Assembly: GCA_033439295.1 (NCBI GenBank)
Contig: JAVTLE010000018.1
Coordinates: forward strand, 992,001 to 1,056,000
DNA length: 64,000 nt
Direction of reading: 5' to 3'
Origin: Deuterostichococcus epilithicus
Taxonomy: Eukaryota; Chlorophyta; Trebouxiophyceae; Prasiolales; Stichococcaceae
This document shows, one piece after another, positions 37,171-64,000 of this stretch; positions within the stretch are counted from its first letter, which is position 1; every line of letters starts with the position of its first letter. The notes below the pieces were generated by a model. It did no database searches. It saw only the letters and a list, made by a program, of their open reading frames with translations, and had not been told where the DNA came from. The position numbers and the translations under genes were made by a program.

Positions 37171-38111
37171 CAACGCGTCGCGGCGCAGCCTGCAGCCTTG
37201 CAGGTGGCGCTGCCATCCCGCAGCGCGGTGGCGCGGTCGGCCGCGATGCCCACAAAGAACTGCGGGGCTGGGGAGGTGCAGCGCTGCTGGAGGTCTGATT
37301 GCCACATGTTTCGGCACAGCAGGCGTGCTGGCAGCACCGCAGGCGGGAGGGTGAGCTCAGGCACTGTTTGTGTGGCATGTTTTGGGGCGCGGATCGATGA
37401 GCAGCGAAATCAGTACTACAGAAACTCGTGCATGCATCCGAGCTGGGCGGTGCTGCAGCTGCAAGAGTGTTCGTGGTCCCTACCCCGTTTCTGTTGATGT
37501 GGGAGACGGCTCGACTCAACTCGATCCTTTACTATCGGAAGCTGTAAGAGCGTCAAAGTGTGCACGAGGGACCTCCCTCCAACGCATCTGACCTGCACGG
37601 ATGTTGCCGTACCAGCGGCACGTGCAATCATGGATAATACCATATCGAATACCAAGCGTCTGGCTTCGCTGACTGATCTGACGCGTGGCCACACGCCGCG
37701 TAGCCGGGGCCGCCGACCGCCGCGATCATATGCAGTGACTGACATAGCCGTTTGCTCGTCGCGCAGCCGCTTCCGAACACTTGGGAGTCGCACCTGCACG
37801 CATGTGCGCAACCCATGTGCAGCAGGCTTTTCGGCGCTCTTGGCAGCGCGCAGACCCGGCGACGGTGATAGAACATATTTCATGAACTTCTAGAAGCGCT
37901 CCACACAGCTTGAGCGCACCTCGTGTCAAGGTGAGCCATGCGTTCCTTGGGCTGCCGATGCGATGCTACAATCGCACGCACCTGCACCCTAAGCGCAGCT
38001 GGCTTGGAAGGGTCCCAGCCAATTGAGCATGCCAGAGTTTTTGTCTGCAACTGCAGGCGCGCCCATGGTCGTGATGCCTGCTGGCTGCACACGCACAAGC
38101 AGGGCGCCAGC
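37034..38111. other. Spacer between the transporter and the giant wall-protein gene
   Basis: Contains the transporter 3' UTR and presumably the promoter of the giant gene. Short open frames on both strands have no recognisable domain. No RNA gene or mobile element is seen. Confidence 0.5.
37543..37547 (+). terminator. TGTAA poly(A) signal for the transporter gene
   Basis: TGTAA about 510 bp after the preferred transporter stop at 37031-37033, the first in this orientation. Confidence 0.5.
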
Positions 38112-41100: not shown

Positions 41101-44100
41101 GCACTCGGCCTTGACAACGCTGGGGCGCGTGAGCGTACAGCCTGGCCCCTGCAGGGTGGGCTACACGATTGCCACTGTGGGCTCAATGTGGAGCCACCAG
41201 GACATGGACACCCCGGGCTTCGAGGTGCTGGGCTGGACGCAGCTGGCCGATGGCTCCGGCGCCCGGGTGGACATGGCCATGTACTACTATCCGCTGAACC
41301 CGGACGGCAGCTGGTACGACTTCGAGGGCTTGAATACGTTCGCCCTGGCGGCGGGCGTGCGCGCCTCCTTCCTAAATGGCACCTTCATCAGCAGCTACTG
41401 GTCAAACTCCTACTACAACGGCGGCTTCAGCCCGTCGCATGTGAAGTCGGGGCCGAGCATGGCGTTCGTGGGCAACGTGTACTCTGTCTGTGCCTTCAAC
41501 TGCCCCTGCGGCGGCCTGGGGCCAGCCTGCTACGGGCCTCCGCCTGGGCCGCCGCCCGGCCCGCCGCCTCTGCCGCCGCCCAGGCCACCGCCTTCACTGC
41601 CGCCCTGGCCCCCGCCGTCTCCGCCGCCTGGCCCCCCTCCGCTGCCTCCTCCGAGCCCACCGCCACGGCCGCCACCATCGCCGCCTCCCGGCCCGCCGCC
41701 AGGGCCAGCCCCGCTACCTCCCCCAAGCCCGACCCCTTCGCCTCCGCCATCACCCCTCCGCCGCCTCCCCCAGCCCGCCTCCGCCCAGCCCACCGCTGCC
41801 ACCCCCTCCCAGTCCGCCGCCCGGGCCGCCTCCTTCACCTCCGCCAAGCCCGCCGCCTCGGCCACCACCACTGCCGCCACCCAATNCGCCACCATCCCCA
41901 CCACCTGGGCCGCCNCCGTTGCCTCNTCCCANCCCACCTCCGCCAGGACCGCCACCTCTGGTACCCCCTAGCCCGCCGCCAGCCCCCCTATCCCGCCCCC
42001 GCTGNCGCCTCCCGGGGCCCCGCCGCATCAGCCTGCCCCGCCACCGCCGCCGCCACGGCCGCCTTTTCCTCCCCAAGGCACGAACAAACTCTGGTGGTAC
42101 CTCCGCCCCACCTATGCACAGGACACCGGCAACAGCACCGCCGCCTATGTGCCGCGCCTGGTGGCCGAATTCTCCCTTCCCTACATCATCAGCGGCACTG
42201 ACGCCTACACGATTGGCTACGGACCCACGTTCACCCGTTGGTGGATCTATGACCTCTCCGTCAACTACATCGAGAGCCTGTACGGGATTCTGAACGCGTG
42301 AGGCTCTCGTCCCGCACTCGGTGCTGGTCATGGCTTGGACCCACGTCAGTGGGCATGTGCTTTTGTGCGCTGGCACATTGTAACAATGGTGGACAGCGCC
42401 AAGCTGCCGATGCACAGCAGCACCCATGTGGCTGGATGTTGATGTTGCATGATGTGCTGGGTGGCGAGCTGCTGGTTGCATTGACGGATGGAGGATCTGC
42501 GCTGCAATGGTAGGCGGCATTGCAAACGACAGCGGGTGGCGCTGCAGGTCAAACACCAGCTGGCTTGAGCGCCATGCCACTTCCGCGCTGTCCCCGACAC
42601 GCGTGGTATGAGATGACCCACCGACGCACGACTTGTGGTGTTATTTGCAGGCTGGGTGAGGCCATCCTCCAGGCTGGCAGACTGTGGGTGCATCTATCCC
42701 CAACGCACGGCAGGCTGGACTTTTTCTCCCCCGGCATCGAGCTGTTGAACGTGCAGACGTTCAGCGATGGAACCGGCACCCACCTCACCCTGGCAGTCAC
42801 CTACTACACGAAGACAAGCGCGGGCGCACCCTTCAATTGGGGCGCCAACGACACGTTTGCTCTGGCCGAGGGGCTGCGCCAGACCCTGCTCAACGGCACC
42901 TTCATGAGCTACTACCTGCCGAAGTATCACCAAACATACTCGGGGCTCCACGTGAACGAAACCAGCGTCGTCGCCGTCGGCGAGGTCTACGCCGCATGCG
43001 CTTTCAACTGCCCATGTGGCGGGGTCAATGCCACAGCGTGCTACAGCCCGCCCTCCCCGCCTCCCCTGCCTCCGCCCGACCCGCCGCCCCCGCAGCCGCC
43101 GCCAGCACCTGCGCCCCAGTCTTCGCCCCCTCTGCCGCCAGAGTCCCCGCCTGGCCCGCCCCCTCAACCGCNGCCAACGCCGNCGNCGCTGCCGCCTCCC
43201 GGGGCCCCGCCGCATCAGCCTGCCCCGCCACCGCCGCCGCCACGGCCGCCTTTTCCTCCCCAAGGCACGAACAAACTCTGGTGGTACCTCCGCCCCACCT
43301 ATGCACAGGACACCGGCAACAGCACCGCCGCCTATGTGCCGCGCCTGGTGGCCGAATTCTCCCTTCCCTACATCATCAGCGGCACTGACGCCTACACGAT
43401 CGGCTACGGACCCACGTTCACCCGTTGGTGGATCTATGACCTCTCCGTCAACTACATCGAGAGCCTGTACGGGATTCTGAACGCGTGAGGCTCTCGTCCC
43501 GCACTCGGTGCTGGTCATGGCTTGGACCCACGTCAGTGGGCATGTGCTTTTGTGCGCTGGCACATTGTAACAATGGTGGACAGCGCCAAGCTGCCGATGC
43601 ACAGCAGCACCCATGTGGCTGGATGTTGATGTTGCATGATGTGCTGGGTGGCGAGCTGCTGGTTGCATTGACGGATGGAGGGTCTGCGCTGCAATGGTAG
43701 GCGGCATTGCAAACGACAGCGGGTGGCGCTGCAGGTCAAACACCAGCTGGCTTGAGCGCCATGCCACTTCCGCGCTGTCCCCGACACGCGCGGTATGAGA
43801 TGACCCACCGACGCACGACTTGTGGTGTTATTTGCAGGCTGGGTGAGGCCATCCTCCAGGCTGGCAGACTGTGGGTGCATCTATCCCCAACGAACGGCAG
43901 GCTGGACTTTTTCTCCCCCGGCATCGAGCTGTTGAACGTGCAGACGTTCAGCGATGGAACCGGCACCCACCTCACCCTGGCAGTCACCTACTACACGAAG
44001 ACAAGCGCGGGCGCACCCTTCAATTGGGGCGCCAACGACACGTTTGCTCTGGCCGAGGGGCTGCGCCAGACCCTGCTCAACGGCACCTTCATGAGCTACT

Positions 44101-47100
44101 ACCTGCCGAAGTATCACCAAACATACTCGGGGCTCCACGTGAACGAAACCAGCGTCGTCGCCGTCGGCGAGGTCTACGCCGCATGCGCTTTCAACTGCCC
44201 ATGTGGGGGGGTCAATGCCACAGCGTGCTACAGCCCGCCCTCCCCGCCTCCCCCGCNNNCNCCCNNCCCGCCGCCCCCGCAGCCGCCGCCAGCACCTCCG
44301 CCCCAGTCTCCGCCCAGCCCTCCTCCGCAGCCACCCCCAGCACCGCCGCCATCGCCCCCGCCTGGCCCGCCCCCTAAACCGCCCCCATTGCCGTCGCCGG
44401 CCCNACCACCGCAACCGCCGCCCAGGTAGCGTGCTTCCTGCCCGATCGTGACGCATTGCCACTTGTGCTTCACTCCCATTGCTGTGGCTCTCCGTGACAG
44501 TACAGACTTTCCGGCCCCATGCTTCCTCGACAAGAGGAAGGCGACTGTTCCTGTCGGGCCGCTTGTCGACTTGTCGGCCTCACAAGCCAGCATACTTACT
44601 GCTGGCGTCAGTATCTTGAAGTTCCGTTCGGTGCCTGGGCAATCTGCCGCGCACTGTGTGACAGCTCGGCACCAAGCAGGACATGCATCGTACCTACGTG
44701 AACTCACCCTCCGTGTCACTCAGCTCATCATGTGTGGCCGCGATGTCGCGGAGGTGACTCCGACACTGCACCCCACCATGCATCAGCCGCCGCGCATCTG
44801 ACGCAGACTCACTGTGTCTTGGTGCGCGCTTGCAGCCCGCCCCCGGCGCCGCCTCCGCGGCCGCCGCCCGTCCCGCCTCCCCAGCCGCCTCCTCAGCCGC
44901 AACACGGGCCGCCGCCGCCCCAACCGCCGCCGGGTCCGCCTCCCAGCCCGCCGCCGCTGCCTGGCCTCATGTTCGACGACCTTGCCGGCGACGAGGTGGT
45001 GCCCAGCAGCTACGGCGGCGCGACCGGCGTGACCTTCACAGGCCTGGCCGTCGCCAACACCAGCGAGTTGGCACTGTACGCGCCCGCTGCCGTGTCGCCG
45101 CCGGGCATCGCCATCAACAGCGGCGGCCAGCCGGTGCAGCTGGCAGCCGGCGGCGGCATGACCTTTGACGTGCCCTACCTGTATGCCACCAGTCTGACGG
45201 GGGCGCTGGTGCGACTGCACGCCGTCGGCAGCCTGGCCGGCGCGCAGACCGCAGTGGCGGACTTTCAGCTGCGGCCCGGTGCCAAGCCCATGCTGCTGGC
45301 CATGCCCGCATTCGTGGCACTGGACAGCCTGGTCATCACGCCATCTGCAGCAGACAGCGGCACCGGCTACAGCGCAGCGTCGACGCTGTTCGGCATTGAC
45401 AACGCGGCCGTGGTGGCACACCCTGCGCCGCCGCCCAGCCCGCCGCCGCAACCCCCTCCACAGCCGCCACCGTCGCCTCCACCAGCCCCTCCTCCCCAGC
45501 CACCGCCCAGTCCGCCTCCGCAGCCGCCCCCAGCACCGCCGCCATCGCCCCCGCCTGGCCCGCCCCCTCAACCGCCCCCATTGCCGCCGCCGGCCCCACC
45601 ACCGCAACCGCCGCCCGGCCCGCCTCCGCNGCCACCGCCCGGGCCACCACCGCAGCCGCCCCCTCGCCGCCGCCCTTGCCGCCGCCCGGTCCGCCGCCTC
45701 AGCCACCACCCTCACCGCCGCCCGGGCCGCCTCCGCAGCCGCCCCCGGACCGCCACCTGAGCCGCCGCCAAGTCCCCCACCGCAACCGCCTCCGCAGCCG
45801 CCGCCTGCACCACCGCCCAGCCCCCGCCGCAGCCGCCCCCCTCGCCGCCGCCGGGCCCGCCTCCGCAGCCGCCGCCCAGGTAGCGTGCTTCCTGCCCGAT
45901 CGTGACGCATCGCCACTTGTGATTCACTCCCATTGCTGTGGCTCTCCGTGACAGTACAGCAGACTTTTCCGGCCCCATGCTTCCTCTTGTCGAGGAGGCG
46001 ACTGTTCCTGTCAGGCCGCTTGTCGACTTGTCGGCCTCACAAGCCAGCATACTTACTGCTGGCGTCAGTATCTTGAAGGTCCGTTCGGTGCCTGGGCAAT
46101 CTGCCGCGCACTGTGTGACAGCTCGGCACCAAGCAGGACATGCATCGTACCTACGTGAACTCACCCTCCGTGTCACTCAGCTCATCATGTGTGGCCGCGA
46201 TGTCGCGGAGGTGACTCCGACACTGCACCCCACCATGCATCAGCCGCCGCGCATCTGCAGACTCACTGTGTCTTGGTGCGCGCTTGCACCACCCCCCGGC
46301 GCCGCCTCCGCGGCCGCCGCCCGTCCCGCCTCCCCAGCCGCCTCCCCAGCCGCAACACGGGCCGCCGCCGCCCCAACCGCCGCCGGGTCCGCCTCCCAGC
46401 CCGCCGCCGCTGCCTGGCCTCATGTTCGACGACCTTGCCGGCGACGAGGTGGTGCCCAGCAGCTACGGCGGCGCGACCGGCGTGACCTTCACAGGCCTGG
46501 CCGTCGCCAACACCAGCGAGTTGGCACTGTACGCGCCCGCTGCCGTGTCGCCGCCGGGCATCGCCATCAACAGCGGCGGCCAGCCGGTGCAGCTGGCAGC
46601 CGGCGGCGGCATGACCTTTGACGTGCCCTACCTGTATGCCACCAGTCTGACGGGGGCGCTGGTGCGACTGCACGCCGTCGGCAGCCTGGCCGGCGCGCAG
46701 ACCGCAGTGGCGGACTTTCAGCTGCGGCCCGGCGCCAAGCCCATGCTGCTGGCCATGCCCGCATTCGTGGCACTGGACAGCCTGGTCATCACGCCATCTG
46801 CAGCAGACAGCGGCACCGGCTACAGCGCAGCGTCGACGCTGTTCGGCATTGACAACGCGGCCGTGGTGGCACACCCTGCGCCGCCGCCCAGCCCGCCGCC
46901 GCAACCCCCTCCACAGCCGCCACCGTCGCCTCCACCAGCCCCTCCTCCCCAGCCACCGCCCAGTCCGCCTCCGCAGCCGCCCCCAGCACCGCCGCCATCG
47001 CCCCCGCCTGGCCCGCCCCCTCAACCGCCCCCATTGCCGCCGCCGGCCCCACCACCGCAACCGCCGCCCGGCCCGCCTCCGCNGCCACCGCCCGGGCCAC

Positions 47101-50100
47101 CACCGCAGCCGCCCCCTCGCCGCCGCCGCCCGGTCCGCCGCCTCAGCCACCACCCTCACCGCCGCCCGGGCCGCCTCCGCAGCCGCCCCCGGACCGCCAC
47201 CTGAGCCGCCGCCAAGTCCCCCACCGCAACCGCCTCCGCAGCCGCCGCCTGCACCACCGCCCAGCCCCCGCCGCAGCCGCCCCCCTCGCCGCCGCCGGGC
47301 CCGCCTCCGCAGCCGCCGCCCAGGTAGCGTGCTTCCTGCCCGATCGTGACGCATCGCCACTTGTGATTCACTCCCATTGCTGTGGCTCTCCGTGACAGTA
47401 CAGCAGACTTTTCCGGCCCCATGCTTCCTCTTGTCGAGGAGGCGACTGTTCCTGTCAGGCCGCTTGTCGACTTGTCGGCCTCACAAGCCAGCATACTTAC
47501 TGCTGGCGTCAGTATCTTGAAGGTCCGTTCGGTGCCTGGGCAATCTGCCGCGCACTGTGTGACAGCTCGGCACCAAGCAGGACATGCATCGTACCTATGT
47601 GAACTCACCCTCCGTGTCACTCAGCTCATCATGTGTGGCCGCGATGTCGCGGAGGTGACTCCGACACTGCACCCCACCATGCATCAGCCGCCGCGCATCT
47701 GCAGACTCACTGTGTCTTGGTGCGCGCTTGCACCACCCCCCGGCGCCGCCTCCGCGGCCGCCGCCCGTCCCGCCTCCCCAGCCGCCTCCCCAGCCGCCAC
47801 CGCCCCAACCGCCGCCGGGTCCGCCTCCCAGCCCGCCGCCGCTGCCTGGCCTCATGTTCGACGACCTTGCCGGCGACGAGGTGGTGCCCAGCAGCTACGG
47901 CGGCGCGACCGGCGTGACCTTCACAGGCCTGGCCGTCGCCAACACCAGCGAGTTGGCACTGTACGCGCCCGCTGCCGTGTCGCCGCCGGGCATCGCCATC
48001 AACAGCGGCGGCCAGCCGGTGCAGCTGGCAGCCGGCGGCGGCATGACCTTTGACGTGCCCTACCTGTATGCCACCAGTCTGACGGGGGCGCTGGTGCGAC
48101 TGCACGCCGTCGGCAGCCTGGCCGGCGCGCAGACCGCAGTGGCGGACTTTCAGCTGCGGCCCGGCGCCAAGCCCATGCTGCTGGCCATGCCCGCATTCGT
48201 GGCACTGGACAGCCTGGTCATCACGCCATCTGCAGCAGACAGCGGCACCGGCTACAGCGCAGCGTCGACGCTGTTCGGCATTGACAACGCGGCCGTGGTG
48301 GCACACCCTGCGCCGCCGCCCAGCCCCGCCGCCGCAACCCCCTCCACAGCCGCCACCGTCGCCTCCACCAGCCCCTCCTCCCCAGCCACCGCCCAGTCCG
48401 CCTCCGCAGCCGCCCCCAGCACCGCCGCCATCGCCCCCGCCTGGCCCGCCCCCTCAACCGCCCCCATTGCCGCCGCCGGCCCCACCACCGCAACCGCCGC
48501 CCGGCCCGCCTCCGCNGCCACCGCCCGGGCCACCACCGCAGCCGCCCCCTCGCCGCCGCCCTTGCCGCCGCCCGGTCCGCCGCCTCAGCCACCACCCTCA
48601 CCGCCGCCCGGGCCGCCTCCGCAGCCGCCCCCGGACCGCCACCTGAGCCGCCGCCAAGTCCCCCACCGCAACCGCCTCCGCAGCCGCCGCCTGCACCACC
48701 GCCCAGCCCCCGCCGCAGCCGCCCCCCTCGCCGCCGCCGGGCCCGCCTCCGCAGCCGCCGCCCAGGTAGCGTGCTTCCTGCCCGATCGTGACGCATCGCC
48801 ACTTGTGATTCACTCCCATTGCTGTGGCTCTCCGTGACAGTACAGCAGACTTTTCCGGCCCCATGCTTCCTCTTGTCGAGGAGGCGACTGTTCCTGTCAG
48901 GCCGCTTGTCGACTTGTCGGCCTCACAAGCCAGCATACTTACTGCTGGCGTCAGTATCTTGAAGGTCCGTTCGGTGCCTGGGCAATCTGCCGCGCACTGT
49001 GTGACAGCTCGGCACCAAGCAGGACATGCATCGTACCTACGTGAACTCACCCTCCGTGTCACTCAGCTCATCATGTGTGGCCGCGATGTCGCGGAGGTGA
49101 CTCCGACACTGCACCCCACCATGCATCAGCCGCCGCGCATCTGACGCAGACTCACTGTGTCTTGGTGCGCGCTTGCAGCCCGCCCCCGGCGCCGCCTCCG
49201 CGGCCGCCGCCCGTCCCGCCTCCCCAGCCGCCTCCTCAGCCGCAACACGGGCCGCCGCCGCCCCAACCGCCGCCGGGTCCGCCTCCCAGCCCGCCGCCGC
49301 TGCCTGGCCTCATGTTCGACGACCTTGCCGGCGACGAGGTGGTGCCCAGCAGCTACGGCGGCGCGACCGGCGTGACCTTCACAGGCCTGGCCGTCGCCAA
49401 CACCAGCGAGTTGGCACTGTACGCGCCCGCTGCCGTGTCGCCGCCGGGCATCGCCATCAACAGCGGCGGCCAGCCGGTGCAGCTGGCAGCCGGCGGCGGC
49501 ATGACCTTTGACGTGCCCTACCTGTATGCCACCAGTCTGACGGGGGCGCTGGTGCGACTGCACGCCGTCGGCAGCCTGGCCGGCGCGCAGACCGCAGTGG
49601 CGGACTTTCAGCTGCGGCCCGGCGCCAAGCCCATGCTGCTGGCCATGCCCGCATTCGTGGCACTGGACAGCCTGGTCATCACGCCATCTGCAGCAGACAG
49701 CGGCACCGGCTACAGCGCAGCGTCGACGCTGTTCGGCATTGACAACGCGGCCGTGGTGGCACACCCTGCGCCGCCGCCCAGCCCGCCGCCCAGCCCGCCN
49801 CCGCAACCCGATCGGAGCCGCCACCGTCGCCTCCACCAGCCCCTCCTCCCCAGCCACCGCCCAGTCCGCCTCCGCAGCCGCCCCCAGCACCGCCGCCATC
49901 GCCCCCGCCTGGCCCGCCCCCTCAACCGCCCCCATTGCCGCCGCCGGCCCCACCACCGCAACCGCCGCCCGGCCCGCCTCCGCNGCCACCGCCCGGGCCA
50001 CCACCGCAGCCGCCCCCTCGCCGCCGCCCTTGCCGCCGCCCGGTCCGCCGCCTCAGCCACCACCCTCACCGCCGCCCGGGCCGCCTCCGCAGCCGCCCCC

Positions 50101-53100
50101 GGACCGCCACCTGAGCCGCCGCCAAGTCCCCCACCGCAACCGCCTCCGCAGCCGCCGCCTGCACCACCGCCCAGCCCCCGCCGCAGCCGCCCCCCTCGCC
50201 GCCGCCGGGCCCGCCTCCGCAGCCGCCGCCCAGGTAGCGTGCTTCCTGCCCGATCGTGACGCATCGCCACTTGTGATTCACTCCCATTGCTGTGGCTCTC
50301 CGTGACAGTACAGCAGACTTTTCCGGCCCCATGCTTCCTCTTGTCGAGGAGGCGACTGTTCCTGTCAGGCCGCTTGTCGACTTGTCGGCCTCACAAGCCA
50401 GCATACTTACTGCTGGCGTCAGTATCTTGAAGGTCCGTTCGGTGCCTGGGCAATCTGCCGCGCACTGTGTGACAGCTCGGCACCAAGCAGGACATGCATC
50501 GTACCTACGTGAACTCACCCTCCGTGTCACTCAGCTCATCATGTGTGGCCGCGATGTCGCGGAGGTGACTCCGACACTGCACCCCACCATGCATCAGCCG
50601 CCGCGCATCTGCAGACTCACTGTGTCTTGGTGCGCGCTTGCAGCCCGCCCCCGGCGCCGCCTCCGCGGCCGCCGCCCGTCCCGCCTCCCCAGCCGCAACA
50701 CGGGCCGCCGCCGCCCCAACCGCCGCCGGGTCCGCCTCCCAGCCCGCCGCCGCTGCCTGGCCTCATGTTCGACGACCTTGCCGGCGACGAGGTGGTGCCC
50801 AGCAGCTACGGCGGCGCGACCGGCGTGACCTTCACAGGCCTGGCCGTCGCCAACACCAGCGAGTTGGCACTGTACGCGCCCGCTGCCGTGTCGCCGCCGG
50901 GCATCGCCATCAACAGCGGCGGCCAGCCGGTGCAGCTGGCAGCCGGCGGCGGCATGACCTTTGACGTGCCCTACCTGTATGCCACCAGTCTGACGGGGGC
51001 GCTGGTGCGACTGCACGCCGTCGGCAGCCTGGCCGGCGCGCAGACCGCAGTGGCGGACTTTCAGCTGCGGCCCGGCGCCAAGCCCATGCTGCTGGCCATG
51101 CCCGCATTCGTGGCACTGGACAGCCTGGTCATCACGCCATCTGCAGCAGACAGCGGCACCGGCTACAGCGCAGCGTCGACGCTGTTCGGCATTGACAACG
51201 CGGCCGTGGTGGCACACCCTGCGCCGCCGCCCAGCCCGCCGCCGCAACCCCCTCCACAGCCGCCACCGTCGCCTCCACCAGCCCCTCCTCCCCAGCCACC
51301 GCCCAGTCCGCCTCCGCAGCCGCCCCCAGCACCGCCGCCATCGCCCCCGCCTGGCCCGCCCCCTCAACCGCCCCCATTGCCGCCGCCGGCCCCACCACCG
51401 CAACCGCCGCCCGGCCCGCCTCCGCAGCCACCGCCCGGGCCACCACCGCAGCCGCCCCCCTCGCCGCCGCCCTTGCCGCCGCCCGGTCCGCCGCCTCAGC
51501 CACCACCCTCACCGCCGCCCGGGCCGCCTCCGCAGCCGCCCCCGGACCGCCACCTGAGCCGCCGCCAAGTCCCCCACCGCAACCGCCTCCGCAGCCGCCA
51601 CCTGAGCCNCCGCCNAGCCCCCCGCCGCAGCCGCCCCCCTCGCCGCCGCCGGGCCCGCCTCCGCAGCCGCCGCCCAGGTAGCGTGCTTCCTGCCCGATCG
51701 TGACGCATCGCCACTTGTGATTCACTCCCATTGCTGTGGCTCTCCGTGACAGTACAGCAGACTTTTCCGGCCCCATGCTTCCTCTTGTCGAGGAGGCGAC
51801 TGTTCCTGTCAGGCCGCTTGTCGACTTGTCGGCCTCACAAGCCAGCATACTTACTGCTGGCGTCAGTGTTTTGAAGGTCCGTTCGGTGCCTGGGCAATCT
51901 GCCGCGCACTGTGTGACAGCTCGGCACCAAGCAGGACATGCATCGTACCTATGTGAACTCACCCTCCGTGTCACTCAGCTCATCATGTGTGGCCGCGATG
52001 TCGCGGAGGTGACTCCGACACTGCACCCCACCATGCATCAGCCGCCGCGCATCTGACGCAGACTCACTGTGTCTTGGTGCGCGCTTGCAGCCCGCCCCCG
52101 CGCCGCCTCCGCGGCCGCCGCCCGTCCCGCCTCCCCAGCCGCCTCCCCAGCCGCCACCCGGGCCGCCGCCGCCCCAAGCGCCGCCGGGTCCGCCTCCCAG
52201 CCCGCCGCCGCTGCCTGGCCTCATGTTCGACGACCTTGCCGGCGACGAGGTGGTGCCCAGCAGCTACGGCGGCGCGACCGGCGTGACCTTCACAGGCCTG
52301 GCCGCCGCCAACACCAGCGAGTTGGCACTGTACGCGCCCGCTGCCGTGTCGCCGCCGGGCATCGCCATCAACAGCGGCGGCCAGCCGGTGCAGCTGGCAG
52401 CCGGCGGCGGCATGACCTTTGACGTGCCCTACCTGTATGCCACCAGTCTGACGGGGGCGCTGGTGCGACTGCACGCCGTCGGCAGCCTGGCCGGCGCGCA
52501 GACCGCAGTGGCGGACTTTCAGCTGCGGCCCGGCGCCAAGCCCATGCTGCTGGCCATGCCCGCATTCGTGGCACTGGACAGCCTGGTCATCACGCCATCT
52601 GCAGCAGACAGCGGCACCGGCTACAGCGCAGCGTCGACGCTGTTCGGCATTGACAACGCGGCCGTGGTGGCACACCCTGCGCCGCCGCCCAGCCCGCCGC
52701 CCAGCCCGCCGCCGCAACCCCCACCACAGCCGCCACCGTCGCCTCCACCAGCCCCTCCTCCCCAGCCACCGCCCAGTCCGCCTCCGCAGCCGCCCCCAGC
52801 ACCGCCGCCATCGCCCCCGCCTGGCCCGCCCCCTCAACCGCCCCCTCCGCCGCCGCCTTTGCCGCCGNCCGGTCCGCCGCCTCAGCCACCACCCTCACCG
52901 CCGCCCGGGCCGCCTCCGCAGCCGCCCCCCGGACCGCCACCTGAGCCGCCGCCNAGTCCCCCACCGCCAGCCGCCTCCGCAGCCGCCGCCTGCACCACCG
53001 CCCAGCCCCCGCCGCAGCCGCCCCCCTCGCCGCCGCCGGGCCCGCCTCCGCAGCCGCCGCCCAGGTAGCGTGCTTCCTGCCCGATCGTGACGCATCGCCA

Positions 53101-56100
53101 CTTGTGATTCACTCCCATTGCTGTGGCTCTCCGTGACAGTACAGCAGACTTTTCCGGCCCCATGCTTCCTCTTGTCGAGGAGGCGACTGTTCCTGTCAGG
53201 CCGCTTGTCGACTTGTCGGCCTCACAAGCCAGCATACTTACTGCTGGCGTCAGTATTTTGAAGGTCCGTTCGGTGCCTGGGCAATCTGCCGCGCACTGTG
53301 TGACAGCTCGGCACCAAGCAGGACATGCATCGTACCTACGTGAACTCACCCTCCGTGTCACTCAGCTCATCATGTGTGGCCGCGATGTCGCGGAGGTGAC
53401 TCCGACACTGCACCCCACCATGCATCAGCCGCCGCGCATCTGCAGACTCACTGTGTCTTGGTGCGCGCTTGCACCACCCCCCGGCGCCGCCTCCGCGGCC
53501 GCCGCCCGTCCCGCCTCCCCAGCCGCCTCCCCAGCCGCAACACGGGCCGCCGCCGCCCCAACCGCCGCCGGGTCCGCCTCCCAGCCCGCCGCCGCTGCCT
53601 GGCCTCATGTTCGACGACCTTGCCGGCGACGAGGTGGTGCCCAGCAGCTACGGCGGCGCGACCGGCGTGACCTTCACAGGCCTGGCCGCCGCCAACACCA
53701 GCGAGTTGGCACTGTACGCGCCCGCTGCCGTGTCGCCGCCGGGCATCGCCATCAACAGCGGCGGCCAGCCGGTGCAGCTGGCAGCCGGCGGCGGCATGAC
53801 CTTTGACGTGCCCTACCTGTATGCCACCAGTCTGACGGGGGCGCTGGTGCGACTGCACGCCGTCGGCAGCCTGGCCGGCGCGCAGACCGCAGTGGCGGAC
53901 TTTCAGCTGCGGCCCGGCGCCAAGCCCATGCTGCTGGCCATGCCCGCATTCGTGGCACTGGACAGCCTGGTCATCACGCCATCTGCAGCAGACAGCGGCA
54001 CCGGCTACAGCGCAGCGTCGACGCTGTTCGGCATTGACAACGCGGCCGTGGTGGCACACCCTGCGCCGCCGCCCAGCCCGCCGCCCAGCCCGCCNCCGCA
54101 ACCCGATCGGAGCCGCCACCGTCGCCTCCACCAGCCCCTCCTCCCCAGCCACCGCCCAGTCCGCCTCCGCAGCCGCCCCCAGCACCGCCGCCATCGCCCC
54201 CGCCTGGCCCGCCCCCTCAACCGCCCCCATTGCCGCCGCCGGCCCCACCACCGCAACCGCCGCCCGGCCCGCCTCCGCNGCCACCGCCCGGGCCACCACC
54301 GCAGCCGCCCCCTCGCCGCCGCCCTTGCCGCCGCCCGGTCCGCCGCCTCAGCCACCACCCTCACCGCCGCCCGGGCCGCCTCCGCAGCCGCCCCCGGACC
54401 GCCACCTGAGCCGCCGCCAAGTCCCCCACCGCAACCGCCTCCGCAGCCGCCGCCTGCACCACCGCCCAGCCCCCGCCGCAGCCGCCCCCCTCGCCGCCGC
54501 CGGGCCCGCCTCCGCAGCCGCCGCCCAGGTAGCGTGCTTCCTGCCCGATCGTGACGCATCGCCACTTGTGATTCACTCCCATTGCTGTGGCTCTCCGTGA
54601 CAGTACAGCAGACTTTTCCGGCCCCATGCTTCCTCTTGTCGAGGAGGCGACTGTTCCTGTCAGGCCGCTTGTCGACTTGTCGGCCTCACAAGCCAGCATA
54701 CTTACTGCTGGCGTCAGTATTTTGAAGGTCCGTTCGGTGCCTGGGCAATCTGCCGCGCACTGTGTGACAGCTCGGCACCAAGCAGGACATGCATCGTACC
54801 TACGTGAACTCACCCTCCGTGTCACTCAGCTCATCATGTGTGGCCGCGATGTCGCGGAGGTGACTCCGACACTGCACCCCACCATGCATCAGCCGCCGCG
54901 CATCTGCAGACTCACTGTGTCTTGGTGCGCGCTTGCACCACCCCCCGGCGCCGCCTCCGCGGCCGCCGCCCGTCCCCGCCTCCCCAGCCGCAACACGGGC
55001 CGCCGCCGCCCCAACCGCCGCCGGGTCCGCCTCCCAGCCCGCCGCCGCTGCCTGGCCTCATGTTCGACGACCTTGCCGGCGACGAGGTGGTGCCCAGCAG
55101 CTACGGCGGCGCGACCGGCGTGACCTTCACAGGCCTGGCCGCCGCCAACACCAGCGAGTTGGCACTGTACGCGCCCGCTGCCGTGTCGCCGCCGGGCATC
55201 GCCATCAACAGCGGCGGCCAGCCGGTGCAGCTGGCAGCCGGCGGCGGCATGACCTTTGACGTGCCCTACCTGTATGCCACCAGTCTGACGGGGGCGCTGG
55301 TGCGACTGCACGCCGTCGGCAGCCTGGCCGGCGCGCAGACCGCAGTGGCGGACTTTCAGCTGCGGCCCGGCGCCAAGCCCATGCTGCTGGCCATGCCCGC
55401 ATTCGTGGCACTGGACAGCCTGGTCATCACGCCATCTGCAGCAGACAGCGGCACCGGCTACAGCGCAGCGTCGACGCTGTTCGGCATTGACAACGCGGCC
55501 GTGGTGGCACACCCTGCGCCGCCGCCCAGCCCGCCGCCCAGCCCGCCGCCGCAACCCCCACCACAGCCGCCACCGTCGCCTCCACCAGCCCCTCCTCCCC
55601 AGCCACCGCCCAGTCCGCCTCCGCAGCCGCCCCCAGCACCGCCGCCATCGCCCCCGCCTGGCCCGCCCCCTCAACCGCCCCCATTGCCGCCGCCGGCCCC
55701 ACCACCGCAACCGCCGCCCGGCCCGCCTCCGCNGCCACCGCCCGGGCCACCACCGCAGCCGCCCCCTCGCCGCCGCCCTTGCCGCCGCCCGGTCCGCCGC
55801 CTCAGCCACCACCCTCACCGCCGCCCGGGCCGCCTCCGCAGCCGCCCCCGGACCGCCACCTGAGCCGCCGCCAAGTCCCCCACCGCAACCGCCTCCGCAG
55901 CCGCCGCCTGCACCACCGCCCAGCCCCCGCCGCAGCCGCCCCCCTCGCCGCCGCCGGGCCCGCCTCCGCAGCCGCCGCCCAGGTAGCGTGCTTCCTGCCC
56001 GATCGTGACGCATCGCCACTTGTGATTCACTCCCATTGCTGTGGCTCTCCGTGACAGTACAGCAGACTTTTCCGGCCCCATGCTTCCTCTTGTCGAGGAG

Positions 56101-59100
56101 GCGACTGTTCCTGTCAGGCCGCTTGTCGACTTGTCGGCCTCACAAGCCAGCATACTTACTGCTGGCGTCAGTATCTTGAAGGTCCGTTCGGTGCCTGGGC
56201 AATCTGCCGCGCACTGTGTGACAGCTCGGCACCAAGCAGGACATGCATCGTACCTATGTGAACTCACCCTCCGTGTCACTCAGCTCATCATGTGTGGCCG
56301 CGATGTCGCGGAGGTGACTCCGACACTGCACCCCACCATGCATCAGCCGCCGCGCATCTGCAGACTCACTGTGTCTTGGTGCGCGCTTGCACCACCCCCC
56401 GGCGCCGCCTCCGCGGCCGCCGCCCGTCCCGCCTCCCCAGCCGCCTCCCCAGCCGCCACCCGGGCCGCCGCCGCCCCAAGCGCCGCCGGGTCCGCCTCCC
56501 AGCCCGCCGCCGCTGCCTGGCCTCATGTTCGACGACCTTGCCGGCGACGAGGTGGTGCCCAGCAGCTACGGCGGCGCGACCGGCGTGACCTTCACAGGCC
56601 TGGCCGCCGCCAACACCAGCGAGTTGGCACTGTACGCGCCCGCTGCCGTGTCGCCGCCGGGCATCGCCATCAACAGCGGCGGCCAGCCGGTGCAGCTGGC
56701 AGCCGGCGGCGGCATGACCTTTGACGTGCCCTACCTGTATGCCACCAGTCTGACGGGGGCGCTGGTGCGACTGCACGCCGTCGGCAGCCTGGCCGGCGCG
56801 CAGACCGCAGTGGCGGACTTTCAGCTGCGGCCCGGCGCCAAGCCCATGCTGCTGGCCATGCCCGCATTCGTGGCACTGGACAGCCTGGTCATCACGCCAT
56901 CTGCAGCAGACAGCGGCACCGGCTACAGCGCAGCGTCGACGCTGTTCGGCATTGACAACGCGGCCGTGGTGGCACACCCTGCGCCGCCGCCCAGCCCGCC
57001 GCCCAGCCCGCCGCCGCAACCCCCACCACAGCCGCCACCGTCGCCTCCACCAGCCCCTCCTCCCCAGCCACCGCCCAGTCCGCCTCCGCAGCCGCCCCCA
57101 GCACCGCCGCCATCGCCCCCGCCTGGCCCGCCCCCTCAACCGCCCCCATTGCCGCCGCCGGCCCCACCACCGCAACCGCCGCCCGGCCCGCCTCCGCNGC
57201 CACCGCCCGGGCCACCACCGCAGCCGCCCCCTCGCCGCCGCCCTTGCCGCCGCCCGGTCCGCCGCCTCAGCCACCACCCTCACCGCCGCCCGGGCCGCCT
57301 CCGCAGCCGCCCCCGGACCGCCACCTGAGCCGCCGCCAAGTCCCCCACCGCAACCGCCTCCGCAGCCGCCGCCTGCACCACCGCCCAGCCCCCGCCGCAG
57401 CCGCCCCCCTCGCCGCCGCCGGGCCCGCCTCCGCAGCCGCCGCCCAGGTAGCGTGCTTCCTGCCCGATCGTGACGCATCGCCACTTGTGATTCACTCCCA
57501 TTGCTGTGGCTCTCCGTGACAGTACAGCAGACTTTTCCGGCCCCATGCTTCCTCTTGTCGAGGAGGCGACTGTTCCTGTCAGGCCGCTTGTCGACTTGTC
57601 GGCCTCACAAGCCAGCATACTTACTGCTGGCGTCAGTATCTTGAAGGTCCGTTCGGTGCCTGGGCAATCTGCCGCGCACTGTGTGACAGCTCGGCACCAA
57701 GCAGGACATGCATCGTACCTATGTGAACTCACCCTCCGTGTCACTCAGCTCATCATGTGTGGCCGCGATGTCGCGGAGGTGACTCCGACACTGCACCCCA
57801 CCATGCATCAGCCGCCGCGCATCTGCAGACTCACTGTGTCTTGGTGCGCGCTTGCACCACCCCCCGGCGCCGCCTCCGCGGCCGCCGCCCGTCCCGCCTC
57901 CCCAGCCGCCTCCCCAGCCGCCACCGCCCCCAACCGCCGCCGGGTCCGCCTCCCAGCCCGCCGCCGCTGCCTGGCCTCATGTTCGACGACCTTGCCGGCG
58001 ACGAGGTGGTGCCCAGCAGCTACGGCGGCGCGACCGGCGTGACCTTCACAGGCCTGGCCGTCGCCAACACCAGCGAGTTGGCACTGTACGCGCCCGCTGC
58101 CGTGTCGCCGCCGGGCATCGCCATCAACAGCGGCGGCCAGCCGGTGCAGCTGGCAGCCGGCGGCGGCATGACCTTTGACGTGCCCTACCTGTATGCCACC
58201 AGTCTGACGGGGGCGCTGGTGCGACTGCACGCCGTCGGCAGCCTGGCCGGCGCGCAGACCGCAGTGGCGGACTTTCAGCTGCGGCCCGGCGCCAAGCCCA
58301 TGCTGCTGGCCATGCCCGCATTCGTGGCACTGGACAGCCTGGTCATCACGCCATCTGCAGCAGACAGCGGCACCGGCTACAGCGCAGCGTCGACGCTGTT
58401 CGGCATTGACAACGCGGCCGTGGTGGCACACCCTGCGCCGCCGCCCAGCCCGCCGCCCAGCCCGCCNCCGCAACCCGATCGGAGCCGCCACCGTCGCCTC
58501 CACCAGCCCCTCCTCCCCAGCCACCGCCCAGTCCGCCTCCGCAGCCGCCCCCAGCACCGCCGCCATCGCCCCCGCCTGGCCCGCCCCCTCAACCGCCCCC
58601 ATTGCCGCCGCCGGCCCCACCACCGCAACCGCCGCCCGGCCCGCCTCCGCNGCCACCGCCCGGGCCACCACCGCAGCCGCCCCCTCGCCGCCGCCCTTGC
58701 CGCCGCCCGGTCCGCCGCCTCAGCCACCACCCTCACCGCCGCCCGGGCCGCCTCCGCAGCCGCCCCCGGACCGCCACCTGAGCCGCCGCCAAGTCCCCCA
58801 CCGCAACCGCCTCCGCAGCCGCCGCCTGCACCACCGCCCAGCCCCCGCCGCAGCCGCCCCCCTCGCCGCCGCCGGGCCCGCCTCCGCAGCCGCCGCCCAG
58901 GTAGCGTGCTTCCTGCCCGATCGTGACGCATCGCCACTTGTGATTCACTCCCATTGCTGTGGCTCTCCGTGACAGTACAGCAGACTTTTCCGGCCCCATG
59001 CTTCCTCTTGTCGAGGAGGCGACTGTTCCTGTCAGGCCGCTTGTCGACTTGTCGGCCTCACAAGCCAGCATACTTACTGCTGGCGTCAGTATCTTGAAGG

Positions 59101-62100
59101 TCCGTTCGGTGCCTGGGCAATCTGCCGCGCACTGTGTGACAGCTCGGCACCAAGCAGGACATGCATCGTACCTATGTGAACTCACCCTCCGTGTCACTCA
59201 GCTCATCATGTGTGGCCGCGATGTCGCGGAGGTGACTCCGACACTGCACCCCACCATGCATCAGCCGCCGTGCATCTGCCGCAGACTCACTGTGTCTTGG
59301 TGCGCGCTTGCAGCCCGCCCCCGGCGCCGCCTCCGCGGCCGCCGCCCGTCCCGCCTCCCCAGCCGCCTCCTCAGCCGCAACACGGGCCGCCGCCGCCCCA
59401 ACCGCCGCCGGGTCCGCCTCCCAGCCCGCCGCCGCTGCCTGGCCTCATGTTCGACGACCTTGCCGGCGACGAGGTGGTGCCCAGCAGCTACGGCGGCGCG
59501 ACCGGCGTGACCTTCACAGGCCTGGCCGTCGCCAACACCAGCGAGTTGGCACTGTACGCGCCCGCTGCCGTGTCGCCGCCGGGCATCGCCATCAACAGCG
59601 GCGGCCAGCCGGTGCAGCTGGCAGCCGGCGGCGGCATGACCTTTGACGTGCCCTACCTGTATGCCACCAGTCTGACGGGGGCGCTGGTGCGACTGCACGC
59701 CGTCGGCAGCCTGGCCGGCGCGCAGACCGCAGTGGCGGACTTTCAGCTGCGGCCCGGCGCCAAGCCCATGCTGCTGGCCATGCCCGCATTCGTGGCACTG
59801 GACAGCCTGGTCATCACGCCATCTGCAGCAGACAGCGGCACCGGCTACAGCGCAGCGTCGACGCTGTTCGGCATTGACAACGCGGCCGTGGTGGCACACC
59901 CTGCGCCGCCGCCCAGCCCGCCGCCCAGCCCGCCGCCGCAACCCCCACCACAGCCGCCACCGTCGCCTCCACCAGCCCCTCCTCCCCAGCCACCGCCCAG
60001 TCCGCCTCCGCAGCCGCCCCCAGCACCGCCGCCATCGCCCCCGCCTGGCCCGCCCCCTCAACCGCCCCCATTGCCGCCGCCGGCCCCACCACCGCAACCG
60101 CCGCCCGGCCCGCCTCCGCNGCCACCGCCCGGGCCACCACCGCAGCCGCCCCCTCGCCGCCGCCCTTGCCGCCGCCCGGTCCGCCGCCTCAGCCACCACC
60201 CTCACCGCCGCCCGGGCCGCCTCCGCAGCCGCCCCCGGACCGCCACCTGAGCCGCCGCCAAGTCCCCCACCGCAACCGCCTCCGCAGCCGCCGCCTGCAC
60301 CACCGCCCAGCCCCCGCCGCAGCCGCCCCCCTCGCCGCCGCCGGGCCCGCCTCCGCAGCCGCCGCCCAGGTAGCGTGCTTCCTGCCCGATCGTGACGCAT
60401 CGCCACTTGTGATTCACTCCCATTGCTGTGGCTCTCCGTGACAGTACAGCAGACTTTTCCGGCCCCATGCTTCCTCTTGTCGAGGAGGCGACTGTTCCTG
60501 TCAGGCCGCTTGTCGACTTGTCGGCCTCACAAGCCAGCATACTTACTGCTGGCGTCAGTATTTTGAAGGTCCGTTCGGTGCCTGGGCAATCTGCCGCGCA
60601 CTGTGTGACAGCTCGGCACCAAGCAGGACATGCATCGTACCTACGTGAACTCACCCTCCGTGTCACTCAGCTCATCATGTGTGGCCGCGATGTCGCGGAG
60701 GTGACTCCGACACTGCACCCCACCATGCATCAGCCGCCGCGCATCTGCAGACTCACTGTGTCTTGGTGCGCGCTTGCACCACCCCCCGGCGCCGCCTCCG
60801 CGGCCGCCGCCCGTCCCGCCTCCCCAGCCGCCTCCCCAGCCGCAACACGGGCCGCCGCCGCCCCAACCGCCGCCGGGTCCGCCTCCCAGCCCGCCGCCGC
60901 TGCCTGGCCTCATGTTCGACGACCTTGCCGGCGACGAGGTGGTGCCCAGCAGCTACGGCGGCGCGACCGGCGTGACCTTCACAGGCCTGGCCGCCGCCAA
61001 CACCAGCGAGTTGGCACTGTACGCGCCCGCTGCCGTGTCGCCGCCGGGCATCGCCATCAACAGCGGCGGCCAGCCGGTGCAGCTGGCAGCCGGCGGCGGC
61101 ATGACCTTTGACGTGCCCTACCTGTATGCCACCAGTCTGACGGGGGCGCTGGTGCGACTGCACGCCGTCGGCAGCCTGGCCGGCGCGCAGACCGCAGTGG
61201 CGGACTTTCAGCTGCGGCCCGGCGCCAAGCCCATGCTGCTGGCCATGCCCGCATTCGTGGCACTGGACAGCCTGGTCATCACGCCATCTGCAGCAGACAG
61301 CGGCACCGGCTACAGCGCAGCGTCGACGCTGTTCGGCATTGACAACGCGGCCGTGGTGGCACACCCTGCGCCGCCGCCCAGCCCGCCGCCCAGCCCGCCG
61401 CCGCAACCCCCACCACAGCCGCCACCGTCGCCTCCACCAGCCCCTCCTCCCCAGCCACCGCCCAGTCCGCCTCCGCAGCCGCCCCCAGCACCGCCGCCAT
61501 CGCCCCCGCCTGGCCCGCCCCCTCAACCGCCCCCATTGCCGCCGCCGGCCCCACCACCGCAACCGCCGCCCGGCCCGCCTCCGCNGCCACCGCCCGGGCC
61601 ACCACCGCAGCCGCCCCCTCGCCGCCGCCCTTGCCGCCGCCCGGTCCGCCGCCTCAGCCACCACCCTCACCGCCGCCCGGGCCGCCTCCGCAGCCGCCCC
61701 CGGACCGCCACCTGAGCCGCCGCCAAGTCCCCCACCGCAACCGCCTCCGCAGCCGCCACCTGAGCCNCCGCCNAGCCCCCCGCCGCAGCCGCCCCCCTCG
61801 CCGCCGCCGGGCCCGCCTCCGCAGCCGCCGCCCAGGTAGCGTGCTTCCTGCCCGATCGTGACGCATCGCCACTTGTGATTCACTCCCATTGCTGTGGCTC
61901 TCCGTGACAGTACAGCAGACTTTTCCGGCCCCATGCTTCCTCTTGTCGAGGAGGCGACTGTTCCTGTCAGGCCGCTTGTCGACTTGTCGGCCTCACAAGC
62001 CAGCATACTTACTGCTGGCGTCAGTATCTTGAAGGTCCGTTCGGTGCCTGGGCAATCTGCCGCGCACTGTGTGACAGCTCGGCACCAAGCAGGACATGCA

Positions 62101-64000
62101 TCGTACCTATGTGAACTCACCCTCCGTGTCACTCAGCTCATCATGTGTGGCCGCGATGTCGCGGAGGTGACTCCGACACTGCACCCCACCATGCATCAGC
62201 CGCCGCGCATCTGCAGACTCACTGTGTCTTGGTGCGCGCTTGCAGCCCGCCCCCGGCGCCGCCTCCGCGGCCGCCGCCCGTCCCGCCTCCCCAGCCGCCT
62301 CCCCAGCCGCCACCGCCCCAACCGCCGCCGGGTCCGCCTCCCAGCCCGCCGCCGCTGCCTGGCCTCATGTTCGACGACCTTGCCGGCGACGAGGTGGTGC
62401 CCAGCAGCTACGGCGGCGCGACCGGCGTGACCTTCACAGGCCTGGCCGTCGCCAACACCAGCGAGTTGGCACTGTACGCGCCCGCTGCCGTGTCGCCGCC
62501 GGGCATCGCCATCAACAGCGGCGGCCAGCCGGTGCAGCTGGCAGCCGGCGGCGGCATGACCTTTGACGTGCCCTACCTGTATGCCACCAGTCTGACGGGG
62601 GCGCTGGTGCGACTGCACGCCGTCGGCAGCCTGGCCGGCGCGCAGACCGCAGTGGCGGACTTTCAGCTGCGGCCCGGCGCCAAGCCCATGCTGCTGGCCA
62701 TGCCCGCATTCGTGGCACTGGACAGCCTGGTCATCACGCCATCTGCAGCAGACAGCGGCACCGGCTACAGCGCAGCGTCGACGCTGTTCGGCATTGACAA
62801 CGCGGCCGTGGTGGCACACCCTGCGCCGCCGCCCAGCCCGCCGCCCAGCCCGCCGCCGCAACCCCCACCACAGCCGCCACCGTCGCCTCCACCAGCCCCT
62901 CCTCCCCAGCCACCGCCCAGTCCGCCTCCGCAGCCGCCCCCAGCACCGCCGCCATCGCCCCCGCCTGGCCCGCCCCCTCAACCGCCCCCATTGCCGCCGC
63001 CGGCCCCACCACCGCAACCGCCGCCCGGCCCGCCTCCGCNGCCACCGCCCGGGCCACCACCGCAGCCGCCCCCTCGCCGCCGCCCTTGCCGCCGCCCGGT
63101 CCGCCGCCTCAGCCACCACCCTCACCGCCGCCCGGGCCGCCTCCGCAGCCGCCCCCGGACCGCCACCTGAGCCGCCGCCAAGTCCCCCACCGCAACCGCC
63201 TCCGCAGCCGCCGCCTGCACCACCGCCCAGCCCCCGCCGCAGCCGCCCCCCTCGCCGCCGCCGGGCCCGCCTCCGCAGCCGCCGCCCAGGTAGCGTGCTT
63301 CCTGCCCGATCGTGACGCATCGCCACTTGTGATTCACTCCCATTGCTGTGGCTCTCCGTGACAGTACAGCAGACTTTTCCGGCCCCATGCTTCCTCTTGT
63401 CGAGGAGGCGACTGTTCCTGTCAGGCCGCTTGTCGACTTGTCGGCCTCACAAGCCAGCATACTTACTGCTGGCGTCAGTATCTTGAAGGTCCGTTCGGTG
63501 CCTGGGCAATCTGCCGCGCACTGTGTGACAGCTCGGCACCAAGCAGGACATGCATCGTACCTATGTGAACTCACCCTCCGTGTCACTCAGCTCATCATGT
63601 GTGGCCGCGATGTCGCGGAGGTGACTCCGACACTGCACCCCACCATGCATCAGCCGCCGTGCATCTGCCGCAGACTCACTGTGTCTTGGTGCGCGCTTGC
63701 AGCCCGCCCCCGGCGCCGCCTCCGCGGCCGCCGCCCGTCCCGCCTCCCCAGCCGCCTCCTCAGCCGCCACCGCCGCCGCCAACCGCCGCCGGGTCCGCCT
63801 CCCAGCCCGCCGCCGCTGCCTGGCCTCATGTTCGACGACCTTGCCGGCGACGAGGTGGTGCCCAGCAGCTACGGCGGCGCGACCGGCGTGACCTTCACAG
63901 GCCTGGCCGTCGCCAACACCAGCGAGTTGGCACTGTACGCGCCCGCTGCCGTGTCGCCGCCGGGCATCGCCATCAACAGCGGCGGCCAGCCGGTGCAGCT
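38112..64000 (+). CDS. Giant secreted hydroxyproline-rich glycoprotein, modular, cut by window edge
   Basis: Probably an extracellular matrix or cell-wall protein; I do not recognise a named family. Two signal peptides are possible: ATG 38112 (GLLVLAVLFIGPASA) or ATG 39054 (TTALLLAVCPAAWLPPARA). Module A (about 75 residues, pattern W-x-L-x-P ... YAQDT-x-N ... AAYVPR) lies at about 39250-39481, 40672-40886, 42085-42297 and 43272-43484. Module B (about 120 residues, containing NTFALA, LLNGTF and a C-terminal VCAFNCPCGG) lies at about 39788-40310, 41155-41515, 42651-43020 and 43838-44208. PPPX linkers follow each B. From 44836 the gene becomes a 14-copy array of one exon (PPPX, about 165-residue module, PPPX). 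The exon ending at 44426 stops at the same CCCAG/GTAGCG donor as every array unit, tying both parts into one gene. The protein would exceed 5,000 residues. As assembled, frameshifts at C-runs interrupt most linkers. Confidence 0.7.
38947..39013 (+). repeat. GGCAGC hexanucleotide tandem repeat
   Basis: About 11 copies of GGCAGC inside a longer GCA/GCG-rich tract from about 38866. If translated in the frame of module A it would give polyalanine, and in another frame Gly-Ser. It lies between the two candidate signal peptides and may be intronic or 5' UTR. Confidence 0.9.
40372..40671 (+). other. Intron with GC-AG borders in the giant gene
   Basis: The exon ending PPPVPPSVQ is followed by CAG/GCAAGC with no nearby in-frame GT that keeps the linker. 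The next exon starts after TTTGTGCAG with TPAWWSFKPTYAQDT in phase 0. A GC-AG intron keeps the frame exactly. Confidence 0.55.
42003..44312 (+). repeat. 1187-bp tandem duplication (module A - intron - module B - linker)
   Basis: Copy 1 is about 42003-43189; copy 2 is about 43190-44312 (incomplete at its end). They share the PPPX linker start, module A, a 353-nt intron (42298-42650 and 43485-43837) and module B, with only a handful of base differences (for example ACGCGTGGT / ACGCGCGGT and CGCACGG / CGAACGG in or near the intron). Introns are as alike as exons, so the duplication is recent or has been homogenised. Ns fall in the proline-rich parts. Confidence 0.92.
44427..44835 (+). other. Founder-like intron before array unit 1
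   Basis: Starts GTAGCG and ends CTTGCAG. It is clearly related to the introns between later units but is the most different: TTGTGCTTCACT instead of TTGTGATTCACT, CGACAAGAGGAAGG in place of TTGTCGAGGAGG, and CCTGTCGGGC for CCTGTCAGGC. Its divergence marks the left edge of the array. Confidence 0.75.
44836..64000 (+). repeat. 14-copy tandem array of a ~1.45-kb exon+intron unit
   Basis: Position of the Met codon in the shared LMFDDLAGDE motif: 44969, 46422, 47854, 49312, 50765, 52223, 53607, 55060, 56525, 57979, 59447, 60912, 62367, 63828. Spacings are 1384-1468 bp, and copy 14 is cut by the window edge. Each unit has an exon (PPPX linker; module from MFDDLAGDEVVPSSYGG to FGIDNAAVVAHP; second PPPX linker) and an intron from CCCAG/GTAGCG. 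Where the acceptor is intact, exon lengths as assembled are 1044 (unit 1: 44836-45879), 1056 (unit 11: 59314-60369) and 1044 (unit 13: 62246-63289), all multiples of 3 with phase-2 ends. The module sequence is almost unchanged between units. The variable points are linker lengths, V or A in GLAVANTSE, the acceptor, and the second linker start. Confidence 0.93.
50644..51677 (+). repeat. Array unit 5 exon, the least damaged copy
   Basis: In this copy the position read as N in most other units is A (PQP), and the first and third C-runs of the second linker have six Cs, not five. The PPPX frame therefore runs on through PSPPPLPPPGPPP. One C-run (near 51540) is still one base short. It is 1034 nt as assembled; one added base gives 1035, a multiple of 3. 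It serves as the reference for how the other units probably read. Confidence 0.7.

Follow-up and report, generated by a model that had tools for sequence, protein, structure and literature searches.

Near-identical tandem units that carry an intron along with coding sequence are known from the human LPA gene, where the KIV-2 repeat unit contains exons and introns. As far as the available accounts go, this coding VNTR, with exon and intron in the unit, is the clearest precedent for the locus described here. On the side of protein design, long chimeric extensins and pherophorins join rods to globular parts. Both belong to the hydroxyproline-rich glycoproteins (HRGPs) of green algae and have proline-rich rods (PMC10762512), and amplification of an exon plus intron is absent from the account of them in the available portion of that paper. 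In the open-licence literature, to the extent that its texts were accessible, we found no account of an exon-plus-intron array in an algal wall-protein gene.

Our window (the whole stretch of DNA analysed, 64,000 bases from Deuterostichococcus epilithicus) is part of contig C16, of 1,058,402 bases, in a genome of 46.8 Mb and 21 contigs, whose GC content, introns and rod proteins are in keeping with a green alga. Like LPA KIV-2, the array found in it consists of near-identical tandem units spanning an intron as well as an exon, but its module and lineage are different, it has one exon per 1.45-kb unit together with PPPX rods, and it is known from one assembly. Like the green-algal chimeric HRGPs, the gene alternates PPPX rods with globular domains in a putatively secreted protein, whereas its array module, unlike that of a pherophorin, has no Pfam family match.

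The reading that we consider probable is that of a coding exon-plus-intron VNTR, of the LPA KIV-2 kind, in one large gene for a secreted, HRGP-type chimeric protein. Its unit (an intron in phase 2, then a short PPPX rod, a module of 158 residues modelled as a beta-sandwich and a long PPPX rod) would have been amplified to at least 15 copies, the introns being copied together with the exons. Self-similar, C-rich rod DNA would allow misaligned recombination to add or remove whole units, so that copy number would be expected to vary, and the phase-2 junctions should preserve the frame when units are gained or lost. One transcript would span the array, the rods of its product would be hydroxyprolinated, and the modules would bind wall glycan or another ligand. 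Should the gene be intact, a single recombination event could alter how long a secreted rod protein is and how many modules it carries; on the initial annotation's proposal, copy number might then tune the properties of the wall. What is observed in favour of this reading is the array itself, its identical donors, near-identity that extends to introns as well as exons, mosaic haplotypes, a diverged edge unit, exons 6 and 7 in phase 2-2 and open modules in all 15 units; counting against it are a frame kept in none of 14 units, the lack of AG at seven of 15 acceptors and a contig break inside the gene.

The array, its upstream exons and the contig end

A tandem array is present in the assembly, and it is not a product of chance. 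The features of the array are as follows.

44426..64000, + strand, array of exon-plus-intron units, continuing for about 2.2 kb past the window (from donors, spacing and self-comparison)
44425, 45879, 47323, 48765, 50233, 51677, 53064, 54528, + strand, donors 1-8 (last exon base)
55982, 57447, 58900, 60369, 61835, 63289, 64750, + strand, donors 9-15 (last exon base)
44426..44835, + strand, unit 1 intron of 410 bp, more diverged than any other intron in the array
44836..45879, + strand, exon of unit 1 (rod 1 at 44836-44956, module at 44957-45430, rod 2 to 45879)
44957..45430, + strand, module 1, 158 codons, open
46410..46883, + strand, module 2
47842..48315, + strand, module 3
49300..49773, + strand, module 4
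50753..51226, + strand, module 5
52211..52684, + strand, module 6
53595..54068, + strand, module 7
55048..55521, + strand, module 8
56513..56986, + strand, module 9
57967..58440, + strand, module 10
59435..59908, + strand, module 11
60900..61373, + strand, module 12
62355..62828, + strand, module 13
63816..64000, + strand, module 14, truncated at the end of the window and complete in the adjoining contig sequence

Each unit runs in the order intron (410-413 bases), short proline rod, globular module of 158 codons and long PPPX rod, and the exon of unit 6 is shorter than the others. The donor, AG/GTAGCGTGC after a proline codon, is identical in 15 of 15 units; donors lie 1387-1469 bp apart (mean 1452), and self-comparison gives matching blocks as long as 9.9 kb that are 98% identical, beyond chance. 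The initial annotation's description of exon-plus-intron units repeated about 1.45 kb apart is therefore confirmed, as is, for the assembly, its count of at least 14 copies: 15 modules are present as assembled, of which 14 begin in the window and the 15th begins at 65284, in adjoining contig sequence.

Upstream of the array we recognise seven exons, with splice sites picked by eye.

39054..39481, + strand, exon 1; 3' end at 39481 in phase 2, start uncertain, open frame 38001-39482
39788..39962, + strand, exon 2; first A/B-type module (splice sites, open frame)
40128..40361, + strand, exon 3; end of the first A/B-type module and a short rod, GC donor
40672..40886, + strand, exon 4; second A module
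41155..42297, + strand, exon 5; B module, PPPX rod and A module, phase 2-2, length divisible by 3
42651..43484, + strand, exon 6; B module, rod and A module, phase 2-2, length divisible by 3, open throughout
43838..44425, + strand, exon 7; B module and rod, phase 2-2, length divisible by 3, open, ending at the first array donor

In exon 1, an in-frame ATG at 39054 is followed by a hydrophobic Ala/Leu-rich stretch which, read by eye, could be a signal peptide. The rod of exon 5 contains two opposite frame switches with a stop between them. This part of the gene carries a tandem duplication of its own, in which 1,129 bases (42000-43128 versus 43187-44315, 98.7% identical) repeat a segment of rod, A module, intron and B module with exons in phase 2-2. 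No homologues of the A/B module were found outside the genome, and the structure model of the B module is poor (pLDDT 41). Within the genome, the B module has distant relatives at C13:509120-511443, with identities of 32-34% and E values between 5e-4 and 4e-6. CATT and CCTG microsatellites occur at window positions 34406-34570, upstream of the gene, and a scan of the window against Rfam at the gathering threshold, together with a tRNA scan, found nothing.

The last B-module exon had been proposed to share its donor with the units, and it does: the sequence is the same and, in the open frame of that exon, the donor lies in phase 2, although the coordinate given earlier, 44426, is the G of GT and the last exon base is 44425. 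The rod-plus-globule chimeric design also stands, since modules alternate with PPPX rods and the amplified unit lies downstream of rod exons with the same junction phase. This junction bears as well on whether each unit of the array could instead be a small gene by itself. An unspliced rod would stop right after the donor-spanning codon (AGG TAG), one frame of the 410-bp spacer stays open over a long stretch, and in unit 14, by way of a frame break in rod 1, the open frame of the spacer appears to continue into the module. Where rod 1 is unbroken, however, the open spacer frame differs from the PPPX frame; the spacer begins with GT and in eight of 15 units ends with TGCAG, and the exon before the first unit has the same donor and phase, so that separate genes seem to us very improbable.

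The contig ends 2402 bp beyond the window end. This break is inside the gene, and the C-terminus lies beyond the assembled sequence. In the final 0.2 kb of C16 the rod after the last module is already distinct from the unit rods, and the last 213 bases have 17 matches, all to C16 itself. Joining this end to the start of contig C3 was considered and rejected, the similarity being at the level of rods (72-76%, among the best 15 BLAST matches) and without overlap; the search of the genome contigs with the module gave no match on C3. That contig starts within another proline-rod gene (C3:1-6560), which holds about three copies of a tandem unit of 2124 bases, 94.7% identical over 4.4 kb by self-comparison. 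Eight loci were compared with themselves in this way; strict limits miss the C3 repeat, and looser limits were used for three of the loci. Both contig ends met here, those of C16 and C3, fall in proline-rod repeats.

Reading frame and splice acceptors as assembled

The initial annotation had described in-phase copies of which any number would keep the frame, a property that the assembled sequence does not have. The PPPX frame is kept through rod 2 in none of the 14 complete units, exon length is divisible by 3 in six of them, and a stop in the module's frame is found in eight of the 14 complete exons. With the module as reference, four of the 14 exons (units 1, 8, 11 and 13) both start and end in phase 2, unit 8 being without an AG acceptor. 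By the local PPPX frame the donor is in phase 2 in 15 of 15 cases, and all 15 modules are open over their 158 codons, encoding two distinct proteins, which have either V or A following GLA. Of the single giant frame that had been proposed, what stands is the junction in phase 2 after the open exons 6 and 7; beyond it every complete unit is broken, AG is missing from seven of the 15 acceptors and the contig breaks off before the gene does.

The count of frame switches depends on a single, simple periodic model (emission table derived from unit 1, penalty fixed), run on 27 rods of this gene, including nine of the 15 short and all 15 long unit rods. The 45 switches found are an undercount, as in units 8, 10 and 14 the short rod looks broken but does not reach a countable length. 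Of these switches 43 are one-base losses, and 39 of the losses are next to a C/G run of at least 5; five distinct contexts (four of them near a run) account for all 43 losses, switches in copied units not being independent. The same model was applied to nine comparison loci, chosen for rods like those of the query or for a module, among which the C9 locus is a relative of this gene and C10 and C14 contribute a pair each. Here there were 151 rod switches, comprising 121 one-base losses and 30 of other kinds, 13 of the latter also near long runs. A C/G run of at least 5 was near 47 of the 121 losses, while 74 were away from such runs; by distinct contexts, 29 of 78 were near a run, as compared with 861 of 6119 positions in the background (p = 4e-7). 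Switch density is 4.6 per kb in this gene; eight of the nine other loci have 2.6-6.3 per kb, and the ninth (C18) has 0 switches in 488 rod bases. As for undetermined bases, all 41 in the window and its extension are within rods, as are 73 of 121 in the other loci (the other 48 being outside detected rods), and one N column is common to 13 of the 15 units.

The preponderance of one-base losses, their adjacency to C/G runs, the similar density in other loci and the openness of all 15 modules suggest that the rod frame breaks are probably consensus error in C-rich DNA, even if long C runs would explain only part of the breaks, since most one-base losses in other loci are not near runs. A single in-phase giant gene is likely on this basis, that is, if the breaks are treated as errors. 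The alternative is a decaying array, in which the breaks and the missing acceptors would be real and most units would make no contribution to the protein or would be skipped in splicing. The absence of any kept frame, the seven acceptors without AG and the position of most one-base losses in other loci away from long runs are what it would predict. Decay is harder to reconcile with 15 unbroken modules out of 15, with breaks that, as counted, are in rods, are mostly one-base losses and have a density like that of eight of nine other loci, or with a dN/dS of about 0.40 between the C16 and C9 loci, and we consider it quite unlikely. Whatever the state of this array, the breaks in rod DNA at eight of the nine other loci mean that HRGP-type gene models in this assembly are unreliable at face value.

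The acceptors fall into two forms. TTGCAG/C, in eight of 15 units, completes a serine codon with the AG of the donor; TTGCACC, which has no AG at that place, is found in the other seven (units 2, 3, 7, 8, 9, 10 and 12).

46289, 47733, 53474, 54938, 56392, 57857, 60779, + strand, TTGCACC sites (window positions)

Each of the seven TTGCACC units also carries a three-base-shorter GCATCTGCAG upstream, and units 5 and 13 have the short GCATCTGCAG form with TTGCAG kept. Judged by its sequence, TTGCACC is a variant of several changes, beyond homopolymer error, and it may have arisen by conversion, by misassembly or by real loss of the splice site.

Divergence among units and mode of amplification

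Over units 1-14, pairwise substitution averages 0.74% both for introns and for rod 2, against 2.5% for rod 1 and 0.14% for modules; among units 2-14 it falls to 0.36% in introns and 0.11% in modules. As the introns are nearly as alike as the exons, near-identity of the modules alone says little about selection. There are 24 variable intron columns; 16 of them set unit 1 apart from all others, as would be expected at the edge of an array that is homogenised in place, and eight vary among units 2-14. The columns private to unit 1 include, at window positions 44526-44534, a short segment, CTCGACAAG, that is the reverse complement of CTTGTCGAG in the other units, resembling a micro-inversion. Nine informative intron and module columns, together with rod variants, yield mosaic unit haplotypes; at the nine columns, haplotypes are shared by units 3 and 10, by units 7, 8 and 12, and by units 11 and 14, whereas the sharing by units 1 and 4 is confined to these columns. 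The introns of units 2-14, differing by only 0.4%, point to recent amplification or homogenisation, and the pattern as a whole fits recent unequal exchange or conversion.

Introner elements are intron copies found at many unrelated genes. Such an origin of the unit intron is ruled out by its matches in the genome, all 15 of which are in the array (the search skips very common words).

The assembly could instead have inflated the array, the true unit number being smaller (or larger) and one noisy consensus having been copied by the assembler or polisher. The position of the array at a contig end would suit such an account, as would the start of the C3 contig in a proline-rod repeat, the sharing of haplotypes by several units, and the recurrence of one N column and of one-base losses at the same place in most units. 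Given the shared errors and the shared N column, the units may not have been called independently of one another, and consensus building may have made them look more alike than they are. Against copying of a single consensus, the units differ in introns, module and rods in a linked but mosaic manner, a shorter exon is peculiar to unit 6 and certain intron variants to unit 1, and no simple block of units recurs in order, as judged by eye. We regard inflation as unlikely, and continue with the VNTR reading.

The module, its fold and a second array

Pfam includes a family of pherophorin domains. With hmmscan at E up to 1, none of three module types matched it or any other Pfam family above the cut-off, the sole sub-threshold hit being DUF6950; in 11 modules, at E up to 10, there was no Pfam match to a carbohydrate-binding module (CBM) or to DUF4465, and the one module scanned against NCBIfam had no sequence-family match. 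Sequence matches in the PDB, to an antibody (E 0.3) and to ATP synthase delta subunits (E 0.006 and above), were taken as chance. Outside the genome, a sequence search found three short unnamed proteins as homologues and a profile search found one of these again, each search scoring the approximately 8000 candidates that share most words.

The structure model of the array module (pLDDT 88.9) is a beta-sandwich with a predicted fold near DUF4465 and CBM16, 22, 4 and 61, and it has the beta-jellyroll of DUF4465. The likeness to the CBMs is one of modelled fold, with no sequence-family match. Adhesin and binary-toxin binding-domain sandwiches score as high as the CBMs in structure comparison, and on the model these matches are a matter of a shared, common sandwich fold only. 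In the cobalamin-binding DUF4465/BtuJ proteins, according to the part of the description available, the HI loop GTPAYF carries the binding tyrosine (PMC13398666). By comparison, the module is 12-16% identical to these proteins in the structure-match rows and lacks a DUF4465 profile match, and GTPAYF was not seen in 11 aligned module rows, of which the C18 row stops before that part.

A more speculative proposal, which we think distinctly improbable, builds on this modelled fold. The protein would be an extracellular fibre for the capture of a ligand (glycan, or cobalamin in view of the closest fold), and its valency would be dialled through the number of modules, set by unit exchange and by acceptor-linked exon skipping. 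Acceptors ending in TGCAG (8/15) and TGCAC (7/15) would allow roughly half of the phase-symmetric exons to be skipped.

The genome contains at least 27 module matches, including those in a second gene.

C9:2174423-2184825, second module gene, with six near-identical intronless copies in a unit of about 0.96 kb and PPPX rods

The module is common to the two arrays, whereas the C9 unit is shorter and has no intron, and the later copies at C9 are spaced by PTxPT: after the six tandem copies come five diverged ones, with PTxPT rods, in an open frame of 1992 codons. The C9 tandem module is 57% identical to the array module. Their comparison gives dN 0.369 and dS 0.921, and the resulting dN/dS of about 0.40, with dS already high, argues for selection on the module. 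Identity within each locus far exceeds that between the loci, so the C16 and C9 arrays most likely expanded or were homogenised separately. A module without a Pfam match, and with a modelled fold near B12- and sugar-binding domains, appears in this way to have been amplified in two genes by means of two types of unit. One more distant copy of the module is found on C18.
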